52,398 nt of DNA. Source: an uncultured Burkholderiales bacterium (GTDB lineage: Bacteria; Pseudomonadota; Gammaproteobacteria; Burkholderiales; Thiobacillaceae). Both the position numbers and the translations under genes were made by a program. The notes beneath the pieces were generated by a model. It made no database searches. It had not been told where the DNA came from and saw nothing but the letters and a program-made list of their open reading frames with translations. Location: contig CALEDT010000026.1 of assembly GCA_937949525.1 (NCBI GenBank), forward strand, positions 1-52,398, given 5' to 3'. Each line of letters starts with the position of its first letter. Position 1 is the first letter of the stretch. Shown piece by piece: positions 2,441 through 45,030 of the stretch.

Positions 2441-2498
2441 CGCGCGGGACGCCGTGAACGGGTGACGGACGATGGCCGGAAGGCGCAGCGGGCGGCGG

Positions 2499-3635
2499 TC
2501 ATCGGGCCAACTCCTCGACCACCTGCGCGACGCGCTCGGTGGCCAGCGGCTTGGCCATCGCGCGCGCCTTGCCGGCGCGCGCGAGCAGCTCGGCGCGGCT
2601 CAGGCCGGCCAGCCAGGCGGCGAGCGCGTCGACACTCAGTGCGTCCTGCGGCATCAGCCAGGCGGCGCCGGCATCGGCCAGGAAGCGGGCGTTGGCGCGC
2701 TGGTGATCGTCGACCGCGTGCGGATAGGGCACGAACAACGCCGCGGAGCCGCTGGCGGCGATCTCCGCCACGGTCAACGCACCGGCGCGGCAGATCACCA
2801 CGTCGGCCCAGTCCAGCGCCTGCGCCATGTCGTCGATGAACGCCAGGCATTCGGCCTCGACACCAGCCTGGGCATAGTGTTCACGCAGCGCCTGCAGATG
2901 CGCGGCGCCGGACTGGTGGCGCACCTGCGGGCGCGCCCCGGCGGGCAGGCGCGCCAGCGCCTGCGGCACGCGTTCGTTCAGCACCGCGGCGCCCAGACTG
3001 CCGCCCACCACCAGCAAACGCAAACCGCCGGTGCGGCCGGCCAGACGCTGGTCCGGCGGCGGCAGCGCGGCGATGTCGGGCCGCACCGGATTGCCGCACC
3101 ACTCGGCGGCGACCTTGCCGCACGGCAGCGGCTTGTCCACGGCCTGCGTGAACGCGCTCGGGTAGCCGGTCAACACGCGGTCGGCGAGACAGGCGAGCAC
3201 CCGATTGGTCAGCCCGGCGATGGCGTTCTGCTCATGCACCACCAGCGGCTTGCCGAACAGGCTGGCCATCATGCCGCCGGGAAACGCAGCATAGCCGCCC
3301 AGACCGAGCGCGACGTCGGGCCGCTCGCGGAAAATCGCGCGCGCCGCCTGCCAGAAAGCCAGCACCAGGAACATCGGGATCACCACTTTGCTCAACACAC
3401 CCTTGCCGCGCAGTCCGGCGACGCGCAGCCAGACCATGTCGAAACCGCGTTCCACCACCAGGCGGGCTTCCAACCCTGCGCGCGTACCCAGCCACACCAC
3501 GCGCCAGCCGTCGGCGCGCAGCCGCTCCGCCACCGCCAGCGCCGGCATCACGTGCCCGCCGGTGCCGCCGGCCATGACCAGCACGGTACGCGCCGGCAGC
3601 GCACTCACCGATGGTTGCCGCGCGCCGCCGCTCAT
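2499..3635 (-). CDS. murG: UDP-GlcNAc:lipid I GlcNAc transferase
   Basis: MurG makes lipid II at the inner face of the membrane (GT28 family). From the ATG at 3635 the product is 378 residues, slightly longer than E. coli MurG (355). It contains [17 protein letters not shown], the family's nucleotide-sugar/lipid-binding loop, then [23 protein letters not shown] and a C-terminal VDDHQRANA. The reading frame stays open upstream into ftsW, but the true start is fixed by the ATGA overlap with the ftsW stop and a purine-rich GGGGAAGAAGG upstream. About 20 residues precede the first glycine loop. Confidence 0.96.
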
Positions 3636-25424: not shown

Positions 25425-26759
25425 TTGCACATGCCAAATTCGGGGGACGCGGACTCCGCTAGCTTCGTGCAGTGGTTCCGCGCCGCGGCGCCTTACATCC
25501 ACGCCTTCCGCGGCCGCACCTTCGTGATTGCCTTCGGCGGCGAGGCGCTCACCGATGGCGGCTTCGCCAGTCTGATCCATGACCTCAACCTGCTCAACAG
25601 CCTGGGCGTGCGCCTGGTGCTGGTGCACGGCGTGCGGCCGCAGGTGGAGGAACGGCTGTATGAGCTGGGACTGGATGCGCAGTACGTCGGCGCGCGCCGG
25701 GTGACCGACGCGGACACGCTGGAGCACGTCAAGGACGCGGTCGGCTCGGTGCGCGTCGACATCGAGAGCCTGCTGTCGGTCGGCCTGCCCAACACGCCCA
25801 TGGCGGGCGCCGAGATCCGCGTCGCCTCGGGTAACTTCGTCACTGCCCGGCCGGTGGGCGTGGTCGACGGCGTCGACCTGCTGTTCACCGGCGAAGTGCG
25901 CAAGATCGCCGAGCGCGCCATCGCCGAGCGTCTGGCCGCCGGGGACATCGTGCTGCTGTCGCCGCTGGGTTACTCGCCCACCGGCGAGGTGTTCAACCTG
26001 ACGCTGGAGGAAGTGGCCACCGCTGCCGCCATCGCGCTGAAGGCGGACAAGCTGATCTTCCTGCTCGACCGCGGCGACTGCCGCGACGCCAAGGGCGAGC
26101 TGATCAGCCAGCTCACCGTCGCCGCCGCGCAGCGGGTGCTGAAATCCTTGCCGGAAGGCGATCTGCGGCTCTACCTGCCCTACGCGGTGCAAGCCTGCAA
26201 ACAGGGCGTGCGCCGCGCGCACCTGCTGCCGCGCGCGCTGGACGGCGCGGTGTTGATGGAACTGTTCACGCATCGCGGCATCGGCACCATGGTCGCGCGC
26301 GAGGCACTGGAGAACGTACGCCCGGCGCGCATCGACGACGTCGGCGGCATCCTGTCGGTGATCGAACCGCTGGAGCAGGAAGGTGTGCTGGTGCGGCGCT
26401 CGCGCGAGCGTCTGGAACAGGAGATCGAACGGTTCTTCGTCGACGAGCTGGACGGCCGCATCGTCGGCTGTGTCGCACTCTATCCGTACGTCGAACAGCA
26501 CACCGGGGAGATGGCCTGCCTGGCGGTGGTGCCGGAGTTCCGCCGCGCCGGACGCGGCGATGCGCTGCTGGGCGCGGTGGAAGTCGCGGCACGCGAGCTG
26601 GGTCTGGCCAGCCTGTTCGTGCTGACCACGCGTACCGCGCACTGGTTCATCGAGCGCGGCTTCACCCTCGGCGGCCCGGATGACCTGCCGGCGCCACGCC
26701 AGGAGCTGTACAACTGGCAGCGGCGCTCCAAGGTGTTGGTGAAACGGCTGGAGGACTGA
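25425..26759 (+). CDS. argA: N-acetylglutamate synthase
   Basis: The first step of arginine synthesis, acetyl-CoA plus glutamate. The 444-residue protein joins an acetylglutamate-kinase-like domain (FVIAFGGEALTDGGF at residues 31-45, VLVHGVRPQVEERL) to a C-terminal GNAT acetyltransferase domain (MACLAVVPEFRRAGRGDALL, residues about 290-440). This two-domain ArgA is the E. coli type (443 residues). GGGAG lies 6 bases before the ATG. The stop is followed after one base by the next gene's ATG, which suggests a shared transcript. Confidence 0.96.
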   Translation: MHMPNSGDADSASFVQWFRAAAPYIHAFRGRTFVIAFGGEALTDGGFASLIHDLNLLNSLGVRLVLVHGVRPQVEERLYELGLDAQYVGARRVTDADTLEHVKDAVGSVRVDIESLLSVGLPNTPMAGAEIRVASGNFVTARPVGVVDGVDLLFTGEVRKIAERAIAERLAAGDIVLLSPLGYSPTGEVFNLTLEEVATAAAIALKADKLIFLLDRGDCRDAKGELISQLTVAAAQRVLKSLPEGDLRLYLPYAVQACKQGVRRAHLLPRALDGAVLMELFTHRGIGTMVAREALENVRPARIDDVGGILSVIEPLEQEGVLVRRSRERLEQEIERFFVDELDGRIVGCVALYPYVEQHTGEMACLAVVPEFRRAGRGDALLGAVEVAARELGLASLFVLTTRTAHWFIERGFTLGGPDDLPAPRQELYNWQRRSKVLVKRLED

Positions 26760-26760
26760 C

Positions 26761-27594
26761 ATGCTTGCCTGGCTGCTGGCCGGATTCGCGTGCATATCGA
26801 TGTTGCTCACGAGCGGTGACAGCCTTGCCCAAAGCGGCTTCGTCGTCGGCGTGCCGCCCATCCACAGTCCGCGTGTGCTGGCGATGCGCTACGAGCCTCT
26901 ACGCGCCTATCTGGAGGCACGCCTGGGTGTGCCGACGCGGGTGGAGACCGCCGCCGATTTCACTCGTTACCATGCGCGCACGCTGCGCGGCGACTTCGAT
27001 CTGACCATCACGCCGGCACATTTCGCGCGCATGGCGCAACTGGACGCCGGTTTTCAGCCTTTGACGCATTTCATGCCGGATCACGACGCGCTGCTGGTTC
27101 TGGATGCAGCCCGTCCACTGCAACACATGAACGAGCTGCGCGGGCGCAACCTGGCGGTGATCGACAAGCTCGCCATCACCGTCATGGCGACGCTGGCCTA
27201 TCTCGAAGGACACGGCCTGGAGGCCGGGCGCGATTTTCGGTTAGTGGAACATCGCACCCACGCCAGCGTAGCCCACGCCGTGGCGACCGGTCTGGCCGCC
27301 GCCGGCGTCACCACCACTCAGGGGCTGCTGCAAATGCCTCCGGAACATCGTCAACGCATGGTCGTGCACAAACACATTGCCGATATCCCCGCGTTCGTCA
27401 TGCTTGCCCGTCCAGGAATGGATCGTACCGACGTCGATCGTCTGCGCGATTGGCTGCTGGCGTTTCAGGCCGACGCCGCCGGACGGGTGTTCCTGACACA
27501 AATCGGCTACGGCGAGATACGCCCGGCGACGGGTGCGGTGATGCGCCGCAGCGACCCCTACGTGGCGGCCACGCGCAAGGCCATGCGTCCGTGA
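26761..27594 (+). CDS. PhnD-like periplasmic binding protein, module 1
   Basis: A 277-residue secreted protein with a signal peptide (hydrophobic residues 3-20, likely cleavage after SLAQ). It resembles the PhnD/PtxB family of phosphonate/phosphite-binding proteins: VVGVPPIHSPRVLAMRYEPLR then FDLTITPAHFARM, the usual type II periplasmic-binding fold order. No ABC permease or ATPase gene is near. Instead its stop overlaps the start of a membrane GGDEF-EAL gene (GTGA), so it probably acts as a ligand sensor for that enzyme rather than in uptake. The ligand is unknown. ATG is one base after the argA stop. Confidence 0.8.
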   Translation: MLAWLLAGFACISMLLTSGDSLAQSGFVVGVPPIHSPRVLAMRYEPLRAYLEARLGVPTRVETAADFTRYHARTLRGDFDLTITPAHFARMAQLDAGFQPLTHFMPDHDALLVLDAARPLQHMNELRGRNLAVIDKLAITVMATLAYLEGHGLEAGRDFRLVEHRTHASVAHAVATGLAAAGVTTTQGLLQMPPEHRQRMVVHKHIADIPAFVMLARPGMDRTDVDRLRDWLLAFQADAAGRVFLTQIGYGEIRPATGAVMRRSDPYVAATRKAMRP

Positions 27595-30389
27595 CCGGGC
27601 CAGCGCGCCGGCGCCTGATGCGCCCCGTTCGACTGTCGCTGTGGAGCAAGCTGACGTTGGCCGGCCTGCTGGTACAGGCGACCATGCTGATCCTGCTGGT
27701 GGTCAGCAACGTGCGCCTCACCCAGGAAGAGTTGATCCACCAGACCGAGGACCGGGTCGCCAGCGCCGCGCCGCTGCTCAATGCCGCGCTGGCGGCGCCG
27801 TTGATGCAGCGCGACTACGCCACGCTGCGCGAAATCCTCGAAGAGGCACGCAACGGCGACAGCTATGCCTATCTGACGCTGCTCGACCGGGACGGCAGCC
27901 GCGTCGCCAGCACCGGTCTGGATGCACATGCGCCGCTTCCGGCCCTGGACACGAGTGTGGCGAGTGCCGGCGGCGCAGTCTTCCATACGCGCGTACCCAT
28001 CGTTCTGGCCGACCTGCAATACGGCGAACTGCGTCTGGGTGTGCCCATCGGTTTTCTGGCCGAGGCACGCGACCGCGTCGTGCGCCAGGGCATCTACGCC
28101 GCCCTGGTGGCCGTGCTCATGACCCTGGCGACCTTGGCGCTGATCGGCTACTGGCTGACACGCCGGCTGAATCAATTGACCATGGCCAGTCACGCCATCG
28201 CCGCAGAGGACTTCGATGCCCGCCTGCCGGCGCCGGGCACCGACGAGGTCGGCCAATTGGTCGAGGCGTTCCATCGCATGTCGAGCGAACTCAAGGCACG
28301 CATGGCCGAACTGCGCGCCAGCGAGCAGCGTTTCTTCGCCATCGCCAACTTCACCTACGATCTGGAGTTGTGGCTGGATCCGGACGGCCGCGCGATCTGG
28401 GTCAACCCGTCGGTCGCACGCATCGCCGGCTTCACGCCGCAGGACTGCCTGGCCATGCCGGGCTTCCCGCTGGTGCTGATCGACCGCGACGATCGCCCCG
28501 AGGCCGAGCGTCTGTTCCAGCAGGCGCTGAGCGGTCACTCCGGCGAGGGCTATCAGTTCCGCATGGCGCGCAAGGACGGTAGCAGTTTCTGGGCGGCGGT
28601 GAACTGGCACCCGATCTACGGGCGCGATGGCGAGTTCCTCGGCATCCGCGCCAGCATCCGCGACATCTCCGAGCTGAAAGCCTCCGAACAGAAGGCCCTG
28701 CAATACCTGGCCACCAGCGAGGCCGAGCGCGCACGCATGCAGGCGCTGCTGGCGGCGATGAACCTGGGCATCCTGTTCGTCGACGGTGGCGGCCGCATCG
28801 TCTACCACAATCCGGCTTTCAGCCAACTGTGGCGGATTCCGCCGGAGCAGGAGACGCTGGGCGCCGACGCGCGCCCGCTGCTGCGCGCCGGCGCCGCGCT
28901 GCTGACGCGGCCCGATGCCTTCATGGAGCACGTCGAGACTCTGCTGACGCGCCACGGCGAAACCCAGAACCACGAGATCGCCACCCGCGACGGCCGCACG
29001 CTGACCCTGCTCAACTACGCGGTGCGCGACCGCGGCGACCATTTCCTCGGCCACCTGTGGATCTTCGAGGACGTCACCGGCGAACGCCAGACCGCCGAGC
29101 AACTGCTGTACCTGGCCGAGCGCGACTCGCTCACCGGCCTGTACAACCGCCACCGCTTCCAACTGGAACTGGAACGCATGCTGGCCGAATCCGGGCGTCA
29201 TGGCGCCGCGTCCGCGCTGCTGTATTTCGACCTGGACGAGTTCAAGGCGATCAACGACCATTTCGGCCACCGCGCCGGTGACACCCTGCTGATGCGCGTC
29301 GCCGGCGAAGTCGCCAACCTGACGCGCAAGAATGAAATGCTGTTCCGCCTGGGCGGCGACGAGTTCGCCGTGCTGCTGCCGGGGGTCGGCGCGGCGCAGG
29401 CCGAAGCGCTGGCCGAGCGCATCGTGCGCGCCATCGCGCAGATTCCGTTCCGTTTCGAGGGGCAGACCCTGCACATCTCCTCCAGCCTGGGCATCGCGCT
29501 GTACCCGACGCACGCGACCGATCAGGACCAACTGGTGGCCTGCGCCGACACCGCCATGTACCAGGCCAAGCATGCCGGCAAGAACGCCTGGCGCGTGTAT
29601 CGCGCCGATCTCGACACCACGCCGGAAATGGTCAGCCGCCTATCCTGGAACGAGCGCATCACGCGCGCGCTGGAGCAGGATCTGTTCGAACTGCACTTCC
29701 AGGGCGTCTATCACGCGCGCAGCCGACGCCTGTCGCACCTCGAGGCGCTGATCCGCATGCGTGACGAAGATGGCGAGGAACTGATCGCGCCCGGCCGGTT
29801 CATCCCGGTGGCGGAAAAGAGCAACAAGATCCTGGAAATCGATCGCTGGGTGTTGCGTCAGGTGGCCGATCTGCTCGCCCGCTACCCGCAGGCGCCGCCC
29901 ATCGCCGTCAACATCTCCGGCCGTTCGCTCGACGATCCCGCGCTGCCCGGCCATATCGCCGAACTGCTGCGCGAACGCCGCGCCGATCCGGCACGCCTGC
30001 TGATCGAGGTCACCGAGACCGCGGCGGTATCCGATCTCACCGACGCGGAACGCTTCATCGAAGCGCTCAAGCACGCCGGCTGCGGCGTGTGCCTGGACGA
30101 CTTCGGCGCCGGTTTCGCCTCGTTCGCCTACCTCAAGCACATCCGCGTCGACACCATCAAGCTGGACGGCATGTTCATCCGCAACCTGCCGCACGACCAT
30201 GCCAATCAGGTGTTCGTGCGCGGCATGGTGGAAGTGGCGCGCGGCCTGGACAAGAACACGGTGGCGGAATGCGTGGAAGACGAGGTGACGCTGCGGCTGC
30301 TCGCCGATCTGGGTGTGGAGAAGGCGCAGGGCTTTTTCCTCGATCGCCCGCAGGCGCGCCATCCGGCGCTGTACGGGAGTCCGACATGA
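27591..30389 (+). CDS. Membrane c-di-GMP enzyme: HAMP-PAS-PAS-GGDEF-EAL
   Basis: A 932-residue inner-membrane signalling protein. Order: membrane span 1 (about 21-39), periplasmic domain of about 130 residues, span 2 (about 169-190), HAMP to about 243, two PAS domains (about 250-365 and 375-495), GGDEF (motif G588-F592) and EAL (E718-L720). The GGDEF is canonical, but the inhibitory site RxxD reads RKNE. The EAL has NISGRS, EVTET, DDFGAG, KLD, AECVED and QGF, so phosphodiesterase activity looks possible. The GTG at 27591 gives a 4-base overlap with the PhnD-like gene; the ATG at 27618 is the alternative start. The last bases overlap the next cyclase gene. Confidence 0.88.
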   Translation: MTGPARRRLMRPVRLSLWSKLTLAGLLVQATMLILLVVSNVRLTQEELIHQTEDRVASAAPLLNAALAAPLMQRDYATLREILEEARNGDSYAYLTLLDRDGSRVASTGLDAHAPLPALDTSVASAGGAVFHTRVPIVLADLQYGELRLGVPIGFLAEARDRVVRQGIYAALVAVLMTLATLALIGYWLTRRLNQLTMASHAIAAEDFDARLPAPGTDEVGQLVEAFHRMSSELKARMAELRASEQRFFAIANFTYDLELWLDPDGRAIWVNPSVARIAGFTPQDCLAMPGFPLVLIDRDDRPEAERLFQQALSGHSGEGYQFRMARKDGSSFWAAVNWHPIYGRDGEFLGIRASIRDISELKASEQKALQYLATSEAERARMQALLAAMNLGILFVDGGGRIVYHNPAFSQLWRIPPEQETLGADARPLLRAGAALLTRPDAFMEHVETLLTRHGETQNHEIATRDGRTLTLLNYAVRDRGDHFLGHLWIFEDVTGERQTAEQLLYLAERDSLTGLYNRHRFQLELERMLAESGRHGAASALLYFDLDEFKAINDHFGHRAGDTLLMRVAGEVANLTRKNEMLFRLGGDEFAVLLPGVGAAQAEALAERIVRAIAQIPFRFEGQTLHISSSLGIALYPTHATDQDQLVACADTAMYQAKHAGKNAWRVYRADLDTTPEMVSRLSWNERITRALEQDLFELHFQGVYHARSRRLSHLEALIRMRDEDGEELIAPGRFIPVAEKSNKILEIDRWVLRQVADLLARYPQAPPIAVNISGRSLDDPALPGHIAELLRERRADPARLLIEVTETAAVSDLTDAERFIEALKHAGCGVCLDDFGAGFASFAYLKHIRVDTIKLDGMFIRNLPHDHANQVFVRGMVEVARGLDKNTVAECVEDEVTLRLLADLGVEKAQGFFLDRPQARHPALYGSPT

Positions 30390-31321
30390 ACCCCACCGAC
30401 GTGAGCCATGCCGCCACACTGGCCCTGCTGCACGAACTGGACCGCGCCATCGCCCAGCACGCCCAGTGGCTGGCGCGCTTCAACCGGCTGTTGATCTGCG
30501 GCGGCGCGACGCCGAGCGCGGATCTCGCCGATGACGCGCACCTGCGCTGCGCCTTCGGTCAGTGGCTGCATGGCCGGGGCCGTGACGCGCTGGGCACGGA
30601 ACCCGGCTTTGCCGCCATCGAGGTGGCGCACCGTGCCATGCACGACATCGCCGCGCACCTGCTGCGCGCGCATGCCGGGGGGCAGACCATCGCCGAGGCC
30701 GACTATGACGCCTTCGTCGCCGTCGCCGGCCGGGTGCGTCAGTTGCTGCGCAAACTCGAACGGGATCTGATGGAACGCCTGGGCGCGGTCGACAAGCTCA
30801 CCGGCGTGTGGAACCGTCAGGCGGTCCATCTGCGCCTGGCCGAGGAGATCGAGCGCGTGCAGCGCACCCGCCTGCCCTGCGCGCTGTGTTACGCCGATCT
30901 CGACGACTTCGCCCGCGTCAACGAACGTCATGGCCAGCGCGCCGGCGACGCCGTGCTGCGCGCCGTGGCCGGCTTGTTCAGCCATCGCCTGCGCGGCTAC
31001 GACACCATCTACCGGCTGGGCGGCGAGGAATTCCTGCTGTGCCTGCCCAACACCGCGCTCGATCCGGCCGGCGCACTGATCGAACGCCTGCGCGCCGAGT
31101 TGGCCGCCACGGCGATCGACGTGGATGGCGACGACGTGCACGTCACCGCGTCGTTCGGCGTGATCGCGCTGGAGCCGATCTTCCTGGTCGAGGAAACGCT
31201 GGAACGCGCCGAACGCGCGCAGCTCATCGCCAAGGCGGAGGGCGGCAACCGGGTGTGCGTGTGGCACGACGTGTGGCATGCGCCACCCACTGCCGGCGAG
31301 GCAACACCCGACGGCGGGTGA
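30386..31321 (+). CDS. DgcZ-like zinc-binding (CZB) diguanylate cyclase
   Basis: A soluble 311-residue protein with an N-terminal CZB domain and a C-terminal GGDEF domain. CZB zinc ligands appear as H25 (AIAQHAQWL), C55 (LRCAFGQWL), H82 and H86 (AHRAMH). E. coli DgcZ (YdeH) uses H22, C52, H79 and H83, so every ligand is shifted by exactly three residues. The catalytic motif is GGEEF (212-216) and the inhibitory RxxD is R203-G-Y-D206. DgcZ is inhibited by zinc and promotes poly-GlcNAc biofilm in E. coli; the same chemistry is inferred here. The ATG overlaps the preceding GGDEF-EAL stop by 4 bases. Confidence 0.88.
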   Translation: MNPTDVSHAATLALLHELDRAIAQHAQWLARFNRLLICGGATPSADLADDAHLRCAFGQWLHGRGRDALGTEPGFAAIEVAHRAMHDIAAHLLRAHAGGQTIAEADYDAFVAVAGRVRQLLRKLERDLMERLGAVDKLTGVWNRQAVHLRLAEEIERVQRTRLPCALCYADLDDFARVNERHGQRAGDAVLRAVAGLFSHRLRGYDTIYRLGGEEFLLCLPNTALDPAGALIERLRAELAATAIDVDGDDVHVTASFGVIALEPIFLVEETLERAERAQLIAKAEGGNRVCVWHDVWHAPPTAGEATPDGG

Positions 31322-35631: not shown

Positions 35632-36815
35632 CCACGCGCTGGTATTCCCTGCGCCGGCGCCTGCTCGCGCTGCTGCTGGGCGGCGTCACCCCCGGCTGGC
35701 TGGTCACCATGGCGTTCTCGTATTTCGACGCCCACCACGAAATCGACGAACTGTTCGACGCGCAACTGGCGCAGGCCGCCCAGACCCTGCTCGCGGTCGC
35801 CGGTGAATATGACGATGACGACGATGTCGTCGAGCTGCCGGGGGATAGCCACCCCTACCAGAAGAAGCTGGTGTTCCAGCTCTGGGACGACCAGGGTCGC
35901 CTGCTGTTGCGCTCCCGAGGCGCGCCGACCATGCGGCTGACCGATGCGCTGGGATTCTCGGAACGGGTGGACGCTCAGGGGCACCGCTGGCTGTACTACA
36001 GCCAGTGGGACGCCCAGCGGCAGTTGCGCGTCGAGGTCGGCGAGAACCACGCGGTACGCGAGGAGCTTTCTCGCCACATCGCCATGCGTTTGCTGGCCCC
36101 CGCCATGCTCGGCCTGCCGCTGCTCGGCCTATGGGTGTGGTTCGCGATCCGACGCGGCATCGCGCCGATCGACACGGTCGCCGATCAGATTGCCCGGCGC
36201 GCGCTCGACGCCGCGGAGCGCGAGCATGCCCTGGCGCAAATCGCCGCCGGCAGCCAGCGCGTCGGCCGGCTGGTCGGGCAATTGCTGACCCTGGCGCGGC
36301 TTGATCCGGGAAGCCGTCCGACGATGCAGGTGGTTTCGCTGGACGCCCTGGCCGCCGAGGAATGCGCCGATCTCGGCCAGATCGCGCTGCAACGGCACAT
36401 CACGCTGGAACTGGACGCGCCGGAGGCGGTATCGGTGATTGGCATTGCCGACCTGCTGCGCGTCCTGCTGCGCAACCTGATCGACAACGCCCTGCGCTAC
36501 ACGCCGGCCGGCGGCAGGGTCGAGGTTGCCATCGGACAGGAAGACGACGGCGTCCGCGTGGTGGTCCGCGATGACGGGCCGGGCATCCCGGAAAGCCAAC
36601 GCGACGACGTGCTGTTGCGCTTCCATCGCCTGGCCGGCCAGGAAATCGAAGGCAGCGGCCTCGGCCTGTCCATCGTCGCGCGCATCGCCGAGTTGCACCA
36701 AGCGCAGTTGAGTCTGCACGACGGCCTGGCGGGGACCGGCTTGTCGGTACGCGTGTTTTTTACCCGGCCAGCCATGCGCCAAGGCGATCCCACAGCCGGT
36801 TGTGGATACCCGTAA
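35628..36815 (+). CDS. Sensor histidine kinase lacking the H-box (QseC-like)
   Basis: A 395-residue membrane protein whose ends fit QseC-type kinases: span 1 (about 10-30), periplasmic domain, span 2 (about 155-172), and a complete ATPase domain with [11 protein letters not shown] (N box), RDDGPGIPE (G1) and GSGLGLSIV (G2). The expected region between span 2 and the second HisKA helix is missing. [11 protein letters not shown] (ending R191) joins directly to [14 protein letters not shown], which normally follows the phosphoacceptor helix, so HAMP and the HELRTP-type H-box are absent. Relatives are about 70 residues longer. The frame is intact. It overlaps the regulator gene by 4 bases. Confidence 0.85.
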
Positions 36816-36844
36816 AATCACACCTGAATTTTCAAGGCATACCC

Positions 36845-38464
36845 ATGCTCACCGTTTCCAACCTCACCATGCAGTTCGGCGCCAAGCCGTTGTTCGAGAA
36901 TGTCAGCGTCAAGTTCGGCGAGGGCAACCGTTACGGCCTGATCGGCGCCAACGGCTGCGGCAAGTCCACCTTCATGAAAATCCTTGCCGGCGTGCTGGAA
37001 CCGTCCGCCGGCAACGTCTCGCTCGACCCCGGCGAGCGCATGGCGCACCTGCGCCAGGACCAGTTCGCTTACGAGGACGAGCGCGTGCTCGACGTGGTGC
37101 TGATGGGCCACGCCGAGATGTGGGCGGTGATGCGCGAGAAGGACGCCATCTACACGAACCCGGAGGCGAGCGAGGACGACTACATGCGCGCCGCCGAACT
37201 GGAGGCGAAATTCGGTGAGATGGGCGGGTATGACGCCGAGGCGCGCGCCGGCGAGCTGTTGCTCGGCGCCGGCATCGACAAGGCATTGCACAACGGGCCG
37301 ATGCGCGAGGTCGCGCCCGGCTGGAAGCTGCGCGTGCTGCTGGTGCAGGCGCTGTTCGCCAATCCGGACATCCTGCTGTTGGACGAACCGACCAACAACC
37401 TGGACATCAACACCATACGCTGGCTGGAAGGCGTGCTCAACGCGCGCGAATCCACCATGATCATCATTTCGCACGACCGTCACTTCCTCAACGCGGTGTG
37501 CACGCACATGGCCGATCTGGACTACCAGACGCTCAAGGTCTACCCCGGCAATTACGACGACTACATGGAAGCGGCCACGCTGGCGCGCGAGCGCCAGGTC
37601 GCGGCCAGCGCCAAGTCCAAGGAGAAGATCGCCGAGCTGGAAGAGTTCGTGCGCCGCTTCCGTGCCAACAAGTCCAAGGCGCGCCAGGCCACCAGCCGCA
37701 TGAAGATGATCGACAAGATCCGCGTCGAGGACGTCAAGCCGTCCTCGCGCCAGTATCCGTGGATCCGCTTCGAGTATGACGACAAGGAGAAGCTGCACCG
37801 TCTGGCCTGCGAGGTGCAGGGCCTGCGCTTCGGCTACGACCCCGCGCAGCCGGTGATCCGCGGCCTGGATCTGACGGTCGCGGCCGGCGACAAGATCGCC
37901 ATCATCGGCGAGAACGGCGTCGGCAAGACCACGCTGCTGCGTCTGCTGGTGGGCGAGCTGCAGCCTCAGGCCGGTCACGTCAAATGGGCGGAGAAGGCGC
38001 GTCCCGGTTACTTTGCGCAGGATCATTCCGCCGAGTTCGACTCGGACCGGCCGCTCACCGAGTGGATCACCGAGTGGGTGCGACTGGGCGGTTACGACGG
38101 TGCCGACGTGGAAACGCTGATCCGCGGCACGCTGGGACGTCTGCTGTTCTCCGGCGACGAGGTGAAGAAGCCGGTGCGCGTGATTTCCGGCGGCGAGCAG
38201 GGGCGCATGCTGTTCGGCAAGCTGATGCTGCTGCGTCCCAACGTGCTGCTGATGGACGAACCCACCAACCACCTGGACATGGAATCGATCGAATCGCTCA
38301 ACACCGCGCTCGATCTGTACCAGGGCACATTGATCTTCGTCTCCCACGATCGTCAGTTCGTGGGCTCCTTGGCCAATCGCATCATCGAACTGAAAACGGA
38401 TGGCAGCCATGTGCTCTACGACGGCGGCTACGACGATTACCTGCACGCGCAGGGCGTGGAATAG
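36845..38464 (+). CDS. ybiT: ABC-F ATPase, YbiT type
   Basis: A soluble 539-residue protein with two ABC ATPase domains and no membrane spans, so a ribosome-associated ABC-F factor rather than a transporter. Walker A sites are GANGCGKST and GENGVGKTT; signatures include the second [14 protein letters not shown]; Walker B regions are [12 protein letters not shown] and [12 protein letters not shown]. The sequence follows E. coli YbiT closely from [20 protein letters not shown] through [14 protein letters not shown] to the end. The ATG at 36845 matches the YbiT start; a longer frame upstream is unlikely. Confidence 0.93.
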
Positions 38465-40374: not shown

Positions 40375-41103
40375 ATGCACGACGACGACCTCGGACCCCC
40401 GCCGCCGCAAGCCTATGAAGTCACCGAGCTGGAGGCGGACGATCCGCGCTGGATGTTCGAACTGCTCGGCAATCCCGCGTTCGCGCGCGTGCCGCCCGCC
40501 AACTACCAGGCCCTGCTGGAACGCTTCATGCCGCGGCGGGTGCCTGCCGGCACGGCGTTGGTGACCCAGGGCGAGGCCGGCGATTACTTCTATCTGCTCC
40601 GGCGCGGGCACGCGCGCGTGACCCGCGTCTCACCGACCGGGGTCAACGTGCAACTGGCCGAAATCGGCCCCGGCGATTGCTTCGGCGAGGAAGCGCTACT
40701 GTCCGGCGAGCCGCGCAACGCCACGGTCACCCTGCTGGAGGACGGCGAGGTGATGTCCCTGTCGGCCGATGACTTCCATACGCTGCTGCGCGCACCGCTG
40801 GTACAGGAGCTGACGCCGGACGCGGCGGTGGAACTGCTGCGCCAGGGCGCGCAGTTGGTGGACGTGCGCGAGGCGGACGAATACCGCCAGGGCAGCATCA
40901 AGGGCGCCATCAACATCCCGCTGTTCCTGCTGCGGCGCAAGCTGAACGAAGTCGACCGGCGGCGCCCGTGCATCGTGTTCTGCGACGACGGCCGGCGCTC
41001 CGCCACCGCCGCGTTCCTGTTGATGCAACGCGGCTATGACGCCCGCGTGCTGCATGGCGGCATCGGCAACGTGAAGAAAACGACGACGGGCGCCAATACT
41101 TGA
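40375..41103 (+). CDS. Cyclic-nucleotide-binding domain / rhodanese fusion
   Basis: A cytoplasmic 242-residue protein. Residues about 33-140 form a CRP-type cyclic-nucleotide-binding domain (VPAGTALVTQGEAGDYFYLLRRGHA and GDCFGEEALLSGEPRNATV, including the phosphate-binding E and R region). Residues about 145-232 form a single rhodanese domain with catalytic C203 in the loop CDDGRRS. There is no helix-turn-helix, so it is not a CRP-like transcription factor. Role unknown: it could gate sulfur or redox transfer by ligand. GGAG precedes the ATG. Confidence 0.85.
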   Translation: MHDDDLGPPPPQAYEVTELEADDPRWMFELLGNPAFARVPPANYQALLERFMPRRVPAGTALVTQGEAGDYFYLLRRGHARVTRVSPTGVNVQLAEIGPGDCFGEEALLSGEPRNATVTLLEDGEVMSLSADDFHTLLRAPLVQELTPDAAVELLRQGAQLVDVREADEYRQGSIKGAINIPLFLLRRKLNEVDRRRPCIVFCDDGRRSATAAFLLMQRGYDARVLHGGIGNVKKTTTGANT

Positions 41104-41755: not shown

Positions 41756-41845
41756 TGACGCCAGCGAGCCCGGGCCGGCTGCCCGCGCGGCCGGCGCGCG
41801 GGTATCATGTCCGGACCGTTCCGAACGAAGCACCGTCGTCCAGCC

Positions 41846-42703
41846 ATGAGACCGAGGCCGTCGAGCGCGATCGGCGTCCTGCTGCTGCTCGCCTGTTGTC
41901 TGTCCGTGCATGCCGGGGCGCCGGCATCACCAGCCTTGCGCTTCGCACCGTTGCCGCTGGAGAACCGGGAGGCCATGCTGCGCCAGTTCCTGCCGCTGGC
42001 CGACCATCTCCAGCGCAAGCTGGGGCAGCCGGTGGAACTGGTGTTCCATGATCGTTACGATGCGCTGCTCGATGCCTTCACGCGCGGCCAGATCGATCTG
42101 GCCCTGCTCGGGCCGCTGCCCTATGTGCGCCTGCGCGAACGCCACGCCCACGCCGTGCCGCTGGCGCACTTCGTGGAGGCCGACGGGCAGCCGACCTACC
42201 GTTGCGCGCTGGTCGATTTCGCCGGCGACGGCATCGCGCCGGCCGCTCTGCGTGGCCGCGAGCTGGCGCTGACCCAACCGCTGTCCACCTGCGGACCGCT
42301 GGCGGCGGACGTCCTGTTGCGCCGCTACGCCGGCTTCGGCCTGGACCAGGTGCGCGTTCGCCATTTCGCCACCCACGACGCGGCGGCACTGGCGGTGGTA
42401 GCTGGCGAACACCCGGCCGGCACGCTGAAGGAATCCATCGCGCGCAAGTTCGCCACGCTGGGCCTGCGCGTGCGGGCATTGAGCGAGCCGTTCCCGGCCT
42501 TCGCACTGGTCGCCAACGCCGCCACGCTGAGCCCCGCGCGTCGGCAGGCACTCAGCCGCGCCCTGCTGCTGGCCACGGCCGAGGAGCGGGCGGCGTGGGG
42601 GCACGATTGGCGCCATGGCCTGCGGCCCGCGCGCGACGCCGACTATGCCGCGGTGCGTCGTCTGGCCATGCCCGGGCCGCTGCCCGCGGCACATGCGCCA
42701 TGA
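41846..42703 (+). CDS. PhnD-like periplasmic binding protein, module 2
   Basis: A 285-residue exported protein (signal region VLLLLACCLSVHAGA; a lipobox reading of LLAC is possible). The fold is again PhnD-like: LRFAPLPLENREAML, LVFHDRYDALLDAFTRGQIDLALLGPLPYVR, then LTQPLSTCGPLAADVLL. As in the module at 26761, no transporter genes are near, and the stop overlaps the ATG of a membrane GGDEF gene (ATGA). It is only distantly similar to the first PhnD-like protein. I infer it senses a ligand for that cyclase. Confidence 0.78.
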   Translation: MRPRPSSAIGVLLLLACCLSVHAGAPASPALRFAPLPLENREAMLRQFLPLADHLQRKLGQPVELVFHDRYDALLDAFTRGQIDLALLGPLPYVRLRERHAHAVPLAHFVEADGQPTYRCALVDFAGDGIAPAALRGRELALTQPLSTCGPLAADVLLRRYAGFGLDQVRVRHFATHDAAALAVVAGEHPAGTLKESIARKFATLGLRVRALSEPFPAFALVANAATLSPARRQALSRALLLATAEERAAWGHDWRHGLRPARDADYAAVRRLAMPGPLPAAHAP

Positions 42704-45030
42704 ACGACCGCTCGGCCTACCGGGGCATCGTGCTGCTGGCCGCGGCCACGCTGGCGGCCCTGCTGACGCTGGCGGCCCTGCTGTATGCGCACTACCAACG
42801 CACCGTCGCCGCCCTGGCGGCGCAGCACGCCACGGCGGTGGGCATCGCCTACGAGTCGGTGGTGAACATGTATCGCCTGGCGGCGGAAGCCGAGTTTCGC
42901 CACCAGGTCATGCAGCCGCGCACGCTGGAACTGCTGCGCCGCGCCCTGGACGCCGACCCCGACGAGTTGCCCGTCGTGCGCGGCCTGCTGTACCGCCATC
43001 TGCGCCCGGCCTATCAGGACCTGGAGCGGCTGGGGCTGCGCCAGTTGCAGTTCCACACCCCACAGGGGTTCAGCCTGTTGCGCTTCCATCGCCCCGAACG
43101 GTCCGGCGACCCGTTGTTCGACATCCGTCCGTCGGTACGCATCGCCAACCAGGAACGGCGCCGGGTGATCGGTTTCGAGGGCGGTCGCGTGTTGCCGGGC
43201 TTCCGCTACGTCTTTCCCGTCATCGATGGCGACAGCCACCTGGGCAGCGTCGAACTGTCCATCAGCTTCGAACAAATCCACGACGCGTTCGGCAGGCTAC
43301 CCGACATCGGCGACAGCATCCTGCTTTTGCGCCGGGAAATCACACGCGACCGGGTATTCGAAGAGCAACGCGAGAAGTTCAGCGATTCACCGCTGCACGC
43401 GGACTACGTCAGCGAACATCCGACGATCTCGCCTGCGACCCATGCGTTTGACACCTCGGCGCTGGCCGCGCGTGTGCTACCCGTATTGCGCAGCCATCGC
43501 CGGCTCGCCGCGGCATTGAGCGCCGGGACTTCGCTCTCGTTGCCCCTGGTGCATGAGGGGCGAGGCTATATCGCCAGTTTTCATGGTATCGACGACGTCG
43601 AGGGGCGGCATGCCGCCTACGTGCTGGCCGTCGTCGAAACGCCCCGGTTACCCACGTTGCGCCACATCGTACTGGCCGAGTTTGCAGTCGGCGCCCTGTT
43701 GATTCTGTTCGCCGCGAGCGCAATGGCGCGGGCGATGGGCCAACGCCGGACCCTGGACAGGGAACGCCAGCGTCTCGACGCCATCACGCAGTGCATGGGA
43801 GAAGGACTGTACGTGCTCGACCGCGATGCTCGCGCGACCTTTGTCAACCGGGCCGCATTGGCGCAATTGGGCTATGGCAGCGACGAGATCCTCGGCCGGA
43901 TCGCGCACGACGTGTTTCACCGTCACGGAGCCAACGACCACCTGCCGCTCGATCACTGTCCCATTTTCAACACCACCCGGAAAGGCAATGCGTACGACGG
44001 CGTCGAATACTTCCAGGCTCGCGACGGGCGCGTGTTCCCCGCAGAAGTGCACAGCCGCCCGCTGCTGGAAGGTGACGAGGTGGCCGGCACGGTAACCTCG
44101 TTCCGGGACATCAGCACCCAGCGCGCCGCCGAAGCGCACGGCCGTCTGCTGCTTTCCGCGCTCCAGGCGGCACAGAATGCCATCGTCATCACCGATGCCG
44201 ACGCCCATATCGAGTGGGCCAACCCGGCGTTCGAACGGCTCACCGGCTACACGCTCGACGAAGCGATCGGGCGCCGGCCGGCGGAACTGGTCAAAAGCGG
44301 CAAACAGGACAACGCCTTTTACGCGCAGCTTTGGGCGACCATTCTCGCCGGCGATACCTGGCACGGCGAATTGATCAACCGGCGCAAGGACGGCTCGCTG
44401 TATCACGAGGAACTCACGATTACACCGGTACCGGATGACGACGGCGTCATCCGTCACTTCATCGCCGTCAAGCAGGACATCAGCGAACGCAAGCAATACG
44501 AGCAAAGGCTGGTGACGCAGGCCACCACCGACGCCCTGACCGGTCTGCCCAACCGACGTCATTTCCTCGCGCGTCTGGATGAGGAACTGGCCCGCCTGCG
44601 CCGCTTTCCAGAGCACGGCGCGGCACTGCTGATGCTGGATCTGGATCATTTCAAGCGCGTCAACGATGCCCACGGCCATGCCGTCGGCGATGCGGTGCTG
44701 CGTCACTTCGCCGCGATGCTGCGCGACGCGCTGCGCAAGACCGACCTCGCCGGGCGGCTGGGCGGCGAGGAATTCGCCGTGCTGCTGACCGGAGTCGGCC
44801 TCGACAGTGCGCACGATCTCGCCGAGCGTCTGCGCCAGCGGGTGGCCGATGGCGTGGTGCGCTTCGACGCGGGCAGCCTGCACTACACCGTCAGCATCGG
44901 TGTCGCGCTGCTCGATCCGGGCGACGCCGCCGACGCCGTGCTGGCCCGCGCCGATGCGGCGCTGTACCGCGCCAAACAGGCGGGGCGCAACCGGGTGGAG
45001 CCGGCGGATCGGGCCGACGGATCGGCCTGA
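42700..45030 (+). CDS. Membrane diguanylate cyclase: dCache-PAS-PAS-GGDEF
   Basis: A 776-residue protein with span 1 (about 9-29), a large periplasmic domain of about 290 residues, span 2 (about 328-347), two PAS domains (about 360-470 and 485-605) and a GGDEF domain (G688-F692, GGEEF). The periplasmic part contains FHTPQGFSLLRFHRPERSGD and GFEGGRVLPGFRYVFPV, as in dCache_3 domains. The inhibitory I-site is complete (R679-K-T-D682). No EAL domain, so it is a cyclase only. Its ATG overlaps the PhnD-like stop by 4 bases. Confidence 0.88.
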   Translation: MNDRSAYRGIVLLAAATLAALLTLAALLYAHYQRTVAALAAQHATAVGIAYESVVNMYRLAAEAEFRHQVMQPRTLELLRRALDADPDELPVVRGLLYRHLRPAYQDLERLGLRQLQFHTPQGFSLLRFHRPERSGDPLFDIRPSVRIANQERRRVIGFEGGRVLPGFRYVFPVIDGDSHLGSVELSISFEQIHDAFGRLPDIGDSILLLRREITRDRVFEEQREKFSDSPLHADYVSEHPTISPATHAFDTSALAARVLPVLRSHRRLAAALSAGTSLSLPLVHEGRGYIASFHGIDDVEGRHAAYVLAVVETPRLPTLRHIVLAEFAVGALLILFAASAMARAMGQRRTLDRERQRLDAITQCMGEGLYVLDRDARATFVNRAALAQLGYGSDEILGRIAHDVFHRHGANDHLPLDHCPIFNTTRKGNAYDGVEYFQARDGRVFPAEVHSRPLLEGDEVAGTVTSFRDISTQRAAEAHGRLLLSALQAAQNAIVITDADAHIEWANPAFERLTGYTLDEAIGRRPAELVKSGKQDNAFYAQLWATILAGDTWHGELINRRKDGSLYHEELTITPVPDDDGVIRHFIAVKQDISERKQYEQRLVTQATTDALTGLPNRRHFLARLDEELARLRRFPEHGAALLMLDLDHFKRVNDAHGHAVGDAVLRHFAAMLRDALRKTDLAGRLGGEEFAVLLTGVGLDSAHDLAERLRQRVADGVVRFDAGSLHYTVSIGVALLDPGDAADAVLARADAALYRAKQAGRNRVEPADRADGSA

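Follow-up and report, generated by a model that had tools for sequence, protein, structure and literature searches.

Does a PhnD-family protein whose gene overlaps that of a GGDEF-EAL enzyme serve transport, or does it act as a receptor that controls c-di-GMP? We addressed this question at a locus lying in a stretch of DNA of 52,398 nucleotides from a bacterium that seems to be a relative of Thiobacillus; the stretch was analyzed as a whole and is hereafter called the window. In the reading that we favor, and to which we give a probability of about 0.75, the PhnD-like protein binds a ligand and docks on the Cache domain of its partner, tuning c-di-GMP synthesis versus breakdown, such that the two proteins likely form a periplasmic sensor.

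A row of four genes on the forward strand

The locus consists of four genes on the forward strand, encoding ArgA, PhnD-family, GGDEF-EAL and CZB-GGDEF proteins, with a gap of one base followed by two overlaps of four bases. The first gene (25425..26759), identified by Pfam and synteny, encodes an argA-like N-acetylglutamate synthase with amino-acid kinase and GNAT domains, and is probably not part of the sensor. A single base separates its end from the PhnD-family gene (26761..27594), which opens with ATG 26761, has a GGAGGA motif 5′ of this start, and closes with TGA 27592-27594. The 277-aa product scores 125.3 bits against PF12974 (cut-off 27), its sole Pfam family at E ≤ 0.001, and displays an N terminus that, judged by eye, resembles a signal peptide. 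The following gene (27591..30389, TGA 30387-30389) likely starts at GTG 27591 within a GTGA overlap, with AAGG upstream; an alternative start at ATG 27618 would leave no overlap with the PhnD-family gene. An in-frame start at −4 was found in at least 13 of the 19 same-genus orthologues, a number that our script undercounts.

This ORF encodes a 932-aa membrane protein in which the sequence and Pfam reveal a Cache-like sensor followed by HAMP, two PAS, GGDEF and EAL domains, all of the latter above their cut-offs. Using an alignment (A3), a model and fold matches, we placed the first transmembrane segment, the periplasmic Cache/PDC-like domain and the second transmembrane segment at 27624..28160; the model of the sensor domain matches the folds of WalK, of the LapD orthologue CdgS9 and of CitA, and members of this domain family give weak scores against CHASE8. 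The row ends with a DgcZ/YdeH-like diguanylate cyclase (30386..31321) joined to the stop of the EAL gene by an ATGA overlap, with CZB and GGDEF domains both above their Pfam cut-offs. The first-pass annotation had described a signal-peptide PhnD-type protein whose stop overlaps by four bases the gene of a membrane protein with a periplasmic domain, HAMP, PAS, GGDEF and EAL. All of this was recovered, with two PAS domains, and the gene pair is real; the CZB-GGDEF gene of the row, argA, a second pair in the window and the ten PF12974 matches of the genome had escaped that annotation.

Conservation of the pair and its transporter context

We searched 61 genomes, the host and 60 relatives. A PhnD-family orthologue with 51-61% identity is present in 19 of the 22 other genomes of the genus, the three without a close orthologue being 58%, 84% and 99% complete. 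All 19 loci have argA on the upstream side and, on the downstream side, the GGDEF-EAL gene (cut by the contig end in one), and the CZB cyclase follows wherever the contig is long enough (18/18). Outside the genus, the best match was taken from 8 of 14 genomes of the same family and from one genome of another family. Seven of the eight same-family loci keep the order argA-PhnD-GGDEF/EAL, and so does the single other-family locus, whose partner is cut by the contig end after its sensor domain. These conserved loci (8/9) represent seven further genera; the exception, a genome of the same family, has a PhnD-like gene near which neither argA nor the partner was found. A search with alignment A2 gave 28 loci, of which 21 show 44-62% identity and 7 are weak or short, and the relatives that carry a name are Hydrogenophilales, Thiobacillus and similar metagenome bins. 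Lack of conservation had been proposed as one test that could overturn the original interpretation, which withstands it. Such an arrangement, recurring across genera and the class, is not due to chance.

The catalytic motifs of GGDEF and EAL were found in 26/26 proteins read (the window protein and 25 orthologues), apart from a single motif absent from a single row; one further orthologue was too short for this reading. The RxxD motif before GGDEF is present in 0/26 of these proteins, and RxxD together with a loose His/Cys pattern is present in 17/17 CZB cyclases read. The GGDEF-EAL orthologues at loci L047-L065 fall into two length classes, of about 800-850 aa and of about 930 aa, which perhaps reflect one versus two PAS domains, and at another locus (L072:7004-8699, minus strand) two tandem PhnD-family genes precede a single GGDEF-EAL gene.

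We then considered transport. The claim that no transporter genes lie nearby agrees with our searches of the window: E. coli PhnE, a broken copy and hence a weak test, matched no permease, and PhnC matched a single ATPase (36800-38464), which appears to be ABC-F-like. In the host genome, scored 100% complete, PhnE gave 0 matches at E ≤ 0.001; the same search was positive in 13 of 14 control genomes, over the cut-off in 6. The PhnD-family protein itself reaches 20.4 bits against the PhnD equivalog TIGR03431 (cut-off 261.1). Because this score is low and the genome yielded no PhnE match, a reading as part of a phosphonate transporter was set aside.

Ten PF12974 matches were found in the host genome. 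Four adjoin c-di-GMP enzymes, namely the gene studied here, that of the second pair in the window, L012 and L014; three precede histidine kinases (L009, L010 and L011), and one, where a contig ends, is fragmentary. At L012 (6179-9405, plus strand) the PhnD-family gene overlaps a LapD_MoxY_N-PAS-GGDEF-EAL gene by four bases. L010 (2687-9683) holds an AioX-like gene, a kinase and a sigma-54 regulator near an arsenite oxidase that exceeds its equivalog cut-off, and L011 (402-8318) a similar AioX-like set near an ArrA-like molybdoenzyme that falls below its own. In the remaining two matches the PhnD-family domain is fused to GAF, HD (HD_5) and a partial GGDEF in a frame that opens at the contig edge (L013:3-2486, plus strand), or to a C-terminal rhodanese-like part, with a receiver protein encoded after it (L015:6758-8077, plus strand). 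The second pair of the window comprises a PhnD-family gene (41840-42703, plus strand) with an ATGA overlap to a dCache_3-PAS-PAS-GGDEF gene (42700-45030, plus strand); homologues of its PhnD protein at E ≤ 1e-30 occur in 4 of the 60 relatives, none from outside the genus, and this sporadic distribution offers no help on the function of the studied pair. The window also encodes a protein that combines a cyclic-nucleotide-binding domain with a rhodanese domain (40375-41103, plus strand).

At the scale of the class, we sampled 20 PF12974 loci from 137 non-own rows, the best of the matches listed, with a few partial or broken rows left out. Five lie beside c-di-GMP enzymes, six beside kinases, one beside a transporter with ABC ATPase and PhnE, and eight show no recognizable partner; a single genome contributed four of the 20, and the search for partners used a restricted choice of query domains. 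This distribution suggests that annotating PF12974 as a phosphonate transporter part is wrong for many genes of the class.

The sensor domain and its PhnD-family partner

Searching with the sensor domain alone in 369 genomes of the host's class, we found 93 places, 73 of which have a PhnD-profile match no more than 500 bases away. By output, these amount to 27/33 for GGDEF-EAL, 3/4 for GGDEF, 23/27 for histidine kinases, 8/11 for kinases with a receiver and 12/18 for unclassified proteins. At 17 of the 93 places no PhnD match was seen in the stretch examined, and three more end at a contig edge. At most nine candidates were scored per genome, making these counts lower bounds, and the domain profile, built from PhnD-adjacent loci only, is biased toward such loci. 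As a control, we drew 20 other GGDEF loci, each spanning about 7 kb, randomly from 98 rows among the matches listed, at least six of the omitted rows being sensor-domain loci; this control, which represents other GGDEF genes and not all of them, gave a PhnD match in 2/20 (one strong, one weak and patchy) and the sensor domain in 0/20. The strong match (L288, about 2460-3180, plus strand) is a PhnD-family gene before a GGDEF gene on the same strand, an order indicating one more PhnD/GGDEF pair, with a sensor part different from the studied domain. The best 30 GGDEF loci, viewed with short flanks of 1500 bases, gave 0/30 PhnD matches and one weak match to the sensor domain.

The two partners also diverge together. 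In 108 pairs retained from 135 loci, after dropping those with short matches or with no upstream PhnD within 500 bases, distances between PhnD proteins and between sensor domains correlate with a Mantel r of 0.87. Shuffling partners within the 21 genomes holding at least two pairs gave values averaging 0.63 and peaking at 0.80, and 0 of 5000 shuffles reached 0.87. On the PhnD tree, a quick tree with several long branches, 61 outputs are c-di-GMP enzymes, 35 are kinases and 12 are unlabelled, with at least 12 switches between outputs, 8 of them forced by starred branches. The correlation together with these switches indicates that PhnD and the Cache domain move jointly with outputs swapped behind them, which fits a sensor unit. 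Inheritance as a single operon could also produce co-divergence; it explains the exchange of outputs less easily.

These results bear on two other explanations for the gene pair. The PhnD and GGDEF-EAL genes might merely be co-transcribed neighbors of argA, with products that never touch: synteny with argA is stable, so that adjacency near the genus could be passive inheritance. Against this, the association extends to many further families within the class, with output domains exchanged, and partners match within genomes, although operon inheritance alone could give the latter; we regard mere neighborhood as very unlikely. Alternatively, the PhnD-like protein could serve an ABC transporter whose genes lie away from this locus, as membership in PF12974 and the role of its namesake PhnD, a transport protein, would suggest. 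This possibility appears extremely improbable given the lack of any PhnE match in a genome scored as complete (a result for the PhnE family only), the low equivalog score and the presence of ABC ATPase with PhnE in just one of the 20 sampled loci.

Ligand pocket, proposed mechanism and known systems

We next compared the binding pocket with that of PhnD. Among Tyr47, Tyr93, Ser127, Thr128, His157, Glu177 and Asp205, only His157 is kept in the window protein, the other six positions holding Phe, His, Ala, Ile, Gln and Phe, with an uncertain alignment near Glu177 and Asp205. The amino acids named here are those found in the E. coli row of the alignment. Across the 108 paired PhnD proteins, Ser127 is replaced by Ala in 83, Tyr47 by Phe in 71, and Thr128 mostly by aliphatic residues, His157 is kept in 80, and an extra histidine (His87 of the window protein) is found in 74. 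His35, His87 and Asp135 are invariant in the set of close orthologues, and the model of the protein shows the complete two-lobed PhnD-type fold. As read from the alignment, most known oxyanion-binding residues are lost from the pocket, and since only His157 remains of Tyr47, Tyr93, Ser127, Thr128 and His157, the ligand is probably neither a classic phosphonate nor arsenite.

The same losses raise the possibility that the protein binds no small molecule at all. It could then be a structural regulator sitting constitutively on the Cache domain, the state being set by redox, proteolysis or a third protein, much as YfiR holds YfiN and LapG meets LapD. The widespread replacement of ligand residues favors this model, as does the resemblance of the sensor model to LapD CdgS9, among other Cache domains, with weak CHASE8 scores. 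The retention of His157 and of the extra histidine in most paired proteins, the invariant His35, His87 and Asp135, which look like an altered but retained site, and the intact fold all speak against it, and we consider an ungated regulator unlikely.

Based on the preferred reading, that of a ligand-dependent sensor, we propose the following mechanism. The PhnD-like protein, whose export we infer, would bind a small periplasmic ligand and dock on its partner's Cache-like domain (27624..28160) and not on a transporter. Docking would alter the transmembrane helices of the partner dimer, and HAMP and the two PAS domains would relay the signal, shifting the balance between c-di-GMP synthesis by GGDEF and breakdown by EAL. 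The CZB-GGDEF cyclase, probably encoded on the same mRNA, may add a second, perhaps zinc-sensitive, arm of synthesis. Given that the GGDEF domain of the GGDEF-EAL protein is without the RxxD inhibition motif and that the CZB-GGDEF cyclase has it, our guess is that the latter is the principal cyclase, with the GGDEF-EAL protein being mainly its regulated counterpart. Contact between the partners, gating by ligand and the direction of control are likewise things that we infer. The proposal in the first-pass annotation, that a binding protein in the periplasm gives input to a c-di-GMP enzyme, is supported by the conservation, the co-divergence and the missing PhnE match.

More tentatively, and with the odds somewhat against it, the paired PF12974 proteins may constitute a large sensory lineage that abandoned transport and the oxyanion site, acquired a histidine-containing pocket for a new ligand class, and signals to c-di-GMP enzymes or kinases. 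If so, "phosphonate-binding" proteins of the class would mostly be receptors and not transporter parts. The pairs available in nature, related in their inputs and differing in their outputs, offer a ready set on which to identify the ligand and to learn which way the signal runs.

How does the pair compare with known systems? DgcZ (YdeH) is a zinc-sensing CZB-GGDEF cyclase. The CZB-GGDEF gene of the row shares its order of CZB and GGDEF domains; it differs in being encoded behind a GGDEF-EAL gene and scores 223.5 bits, under the cut-off of 256, against NF007380, which we take to be the DgcZ model. NspS, reportedly a PotD-like protein, belongs to a family that was set aside for the window protein on account of its sole Pfam family. 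In NspS-MbaA of Vibrio cholerae, a binding protein of the periplasm controls a membrane enzyme that is bifunctional, with GGDEF and EAL domains (PMC8967002). The present pair likewise joins a periplasmic binding protein to a GGDEF-EAL membrane partner with catalytic motifs in both domains; it differs in that the binding protein belongs to PF12974, whereas NspS binds polyamines. In the AioX-AioS, ArxX and ArrX arsenic sensors, the output is a histidine kinase and not a c-di-GMP enzyme (PMC5908839). Of the AioX pocket residues given there (Tyr88, Cys106, Tyr131, Ser161, Ser163, His192 and Asp210), a mapping taken from a profile alignment finds one of seven identical in the window protein (His192, as His167) and two conservative (Phe67 and Thr140). 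A sensor domain shared with AioS was also discarded, the similarity being not significant (E 0.14).

XAC2382 is said to be a cyclase without EAL. Together with XAC2383 of Xanthomonas citri it forms a published bipartite receptor-diguanylate cyclase pair (Teixeira et al. 2018, J Biol Chem 293:10767), a closer precedent than NspS-MbaA, the one named originally. Titles and the beginnings of abstracts yielded no paper on a PhnD/GGDEF pair and missed this 2018 report as well, leaving absence from the literature unproven; in Dechloromonas aromatica, a published table places a gene for a periplasmic ABC component directly before a GGDEF gene in a hydrogenase cluster, possibly a pair of the same kind (PMC2907700). 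Profile A1 matches XAC2383 (5ub3) at E 2.2e-14, seventh of 23, and the narrower profile A4 at E 0.0023, last of 7; PtxB outscores it by sequence profile, and in the fold comparison XAC2383 ranks first but tied, with a closely similar fold. Both systems combine a PF12974 binding protein, here homologous to XAC2383, with an adjoining membrane cyclase carrying a periplasmic Cache domain, and the expectation that a PhnD-family receptor for a c-di-GMP enzyme would be new does not hold, since XAC2383-XAC2382 precedes it. What remains beyond that precedent is the HAMP-PAS-PAS-GGDEF-EAL output, the CZB cyclase encoded after it as a third gene, and the altered ligand pocket.
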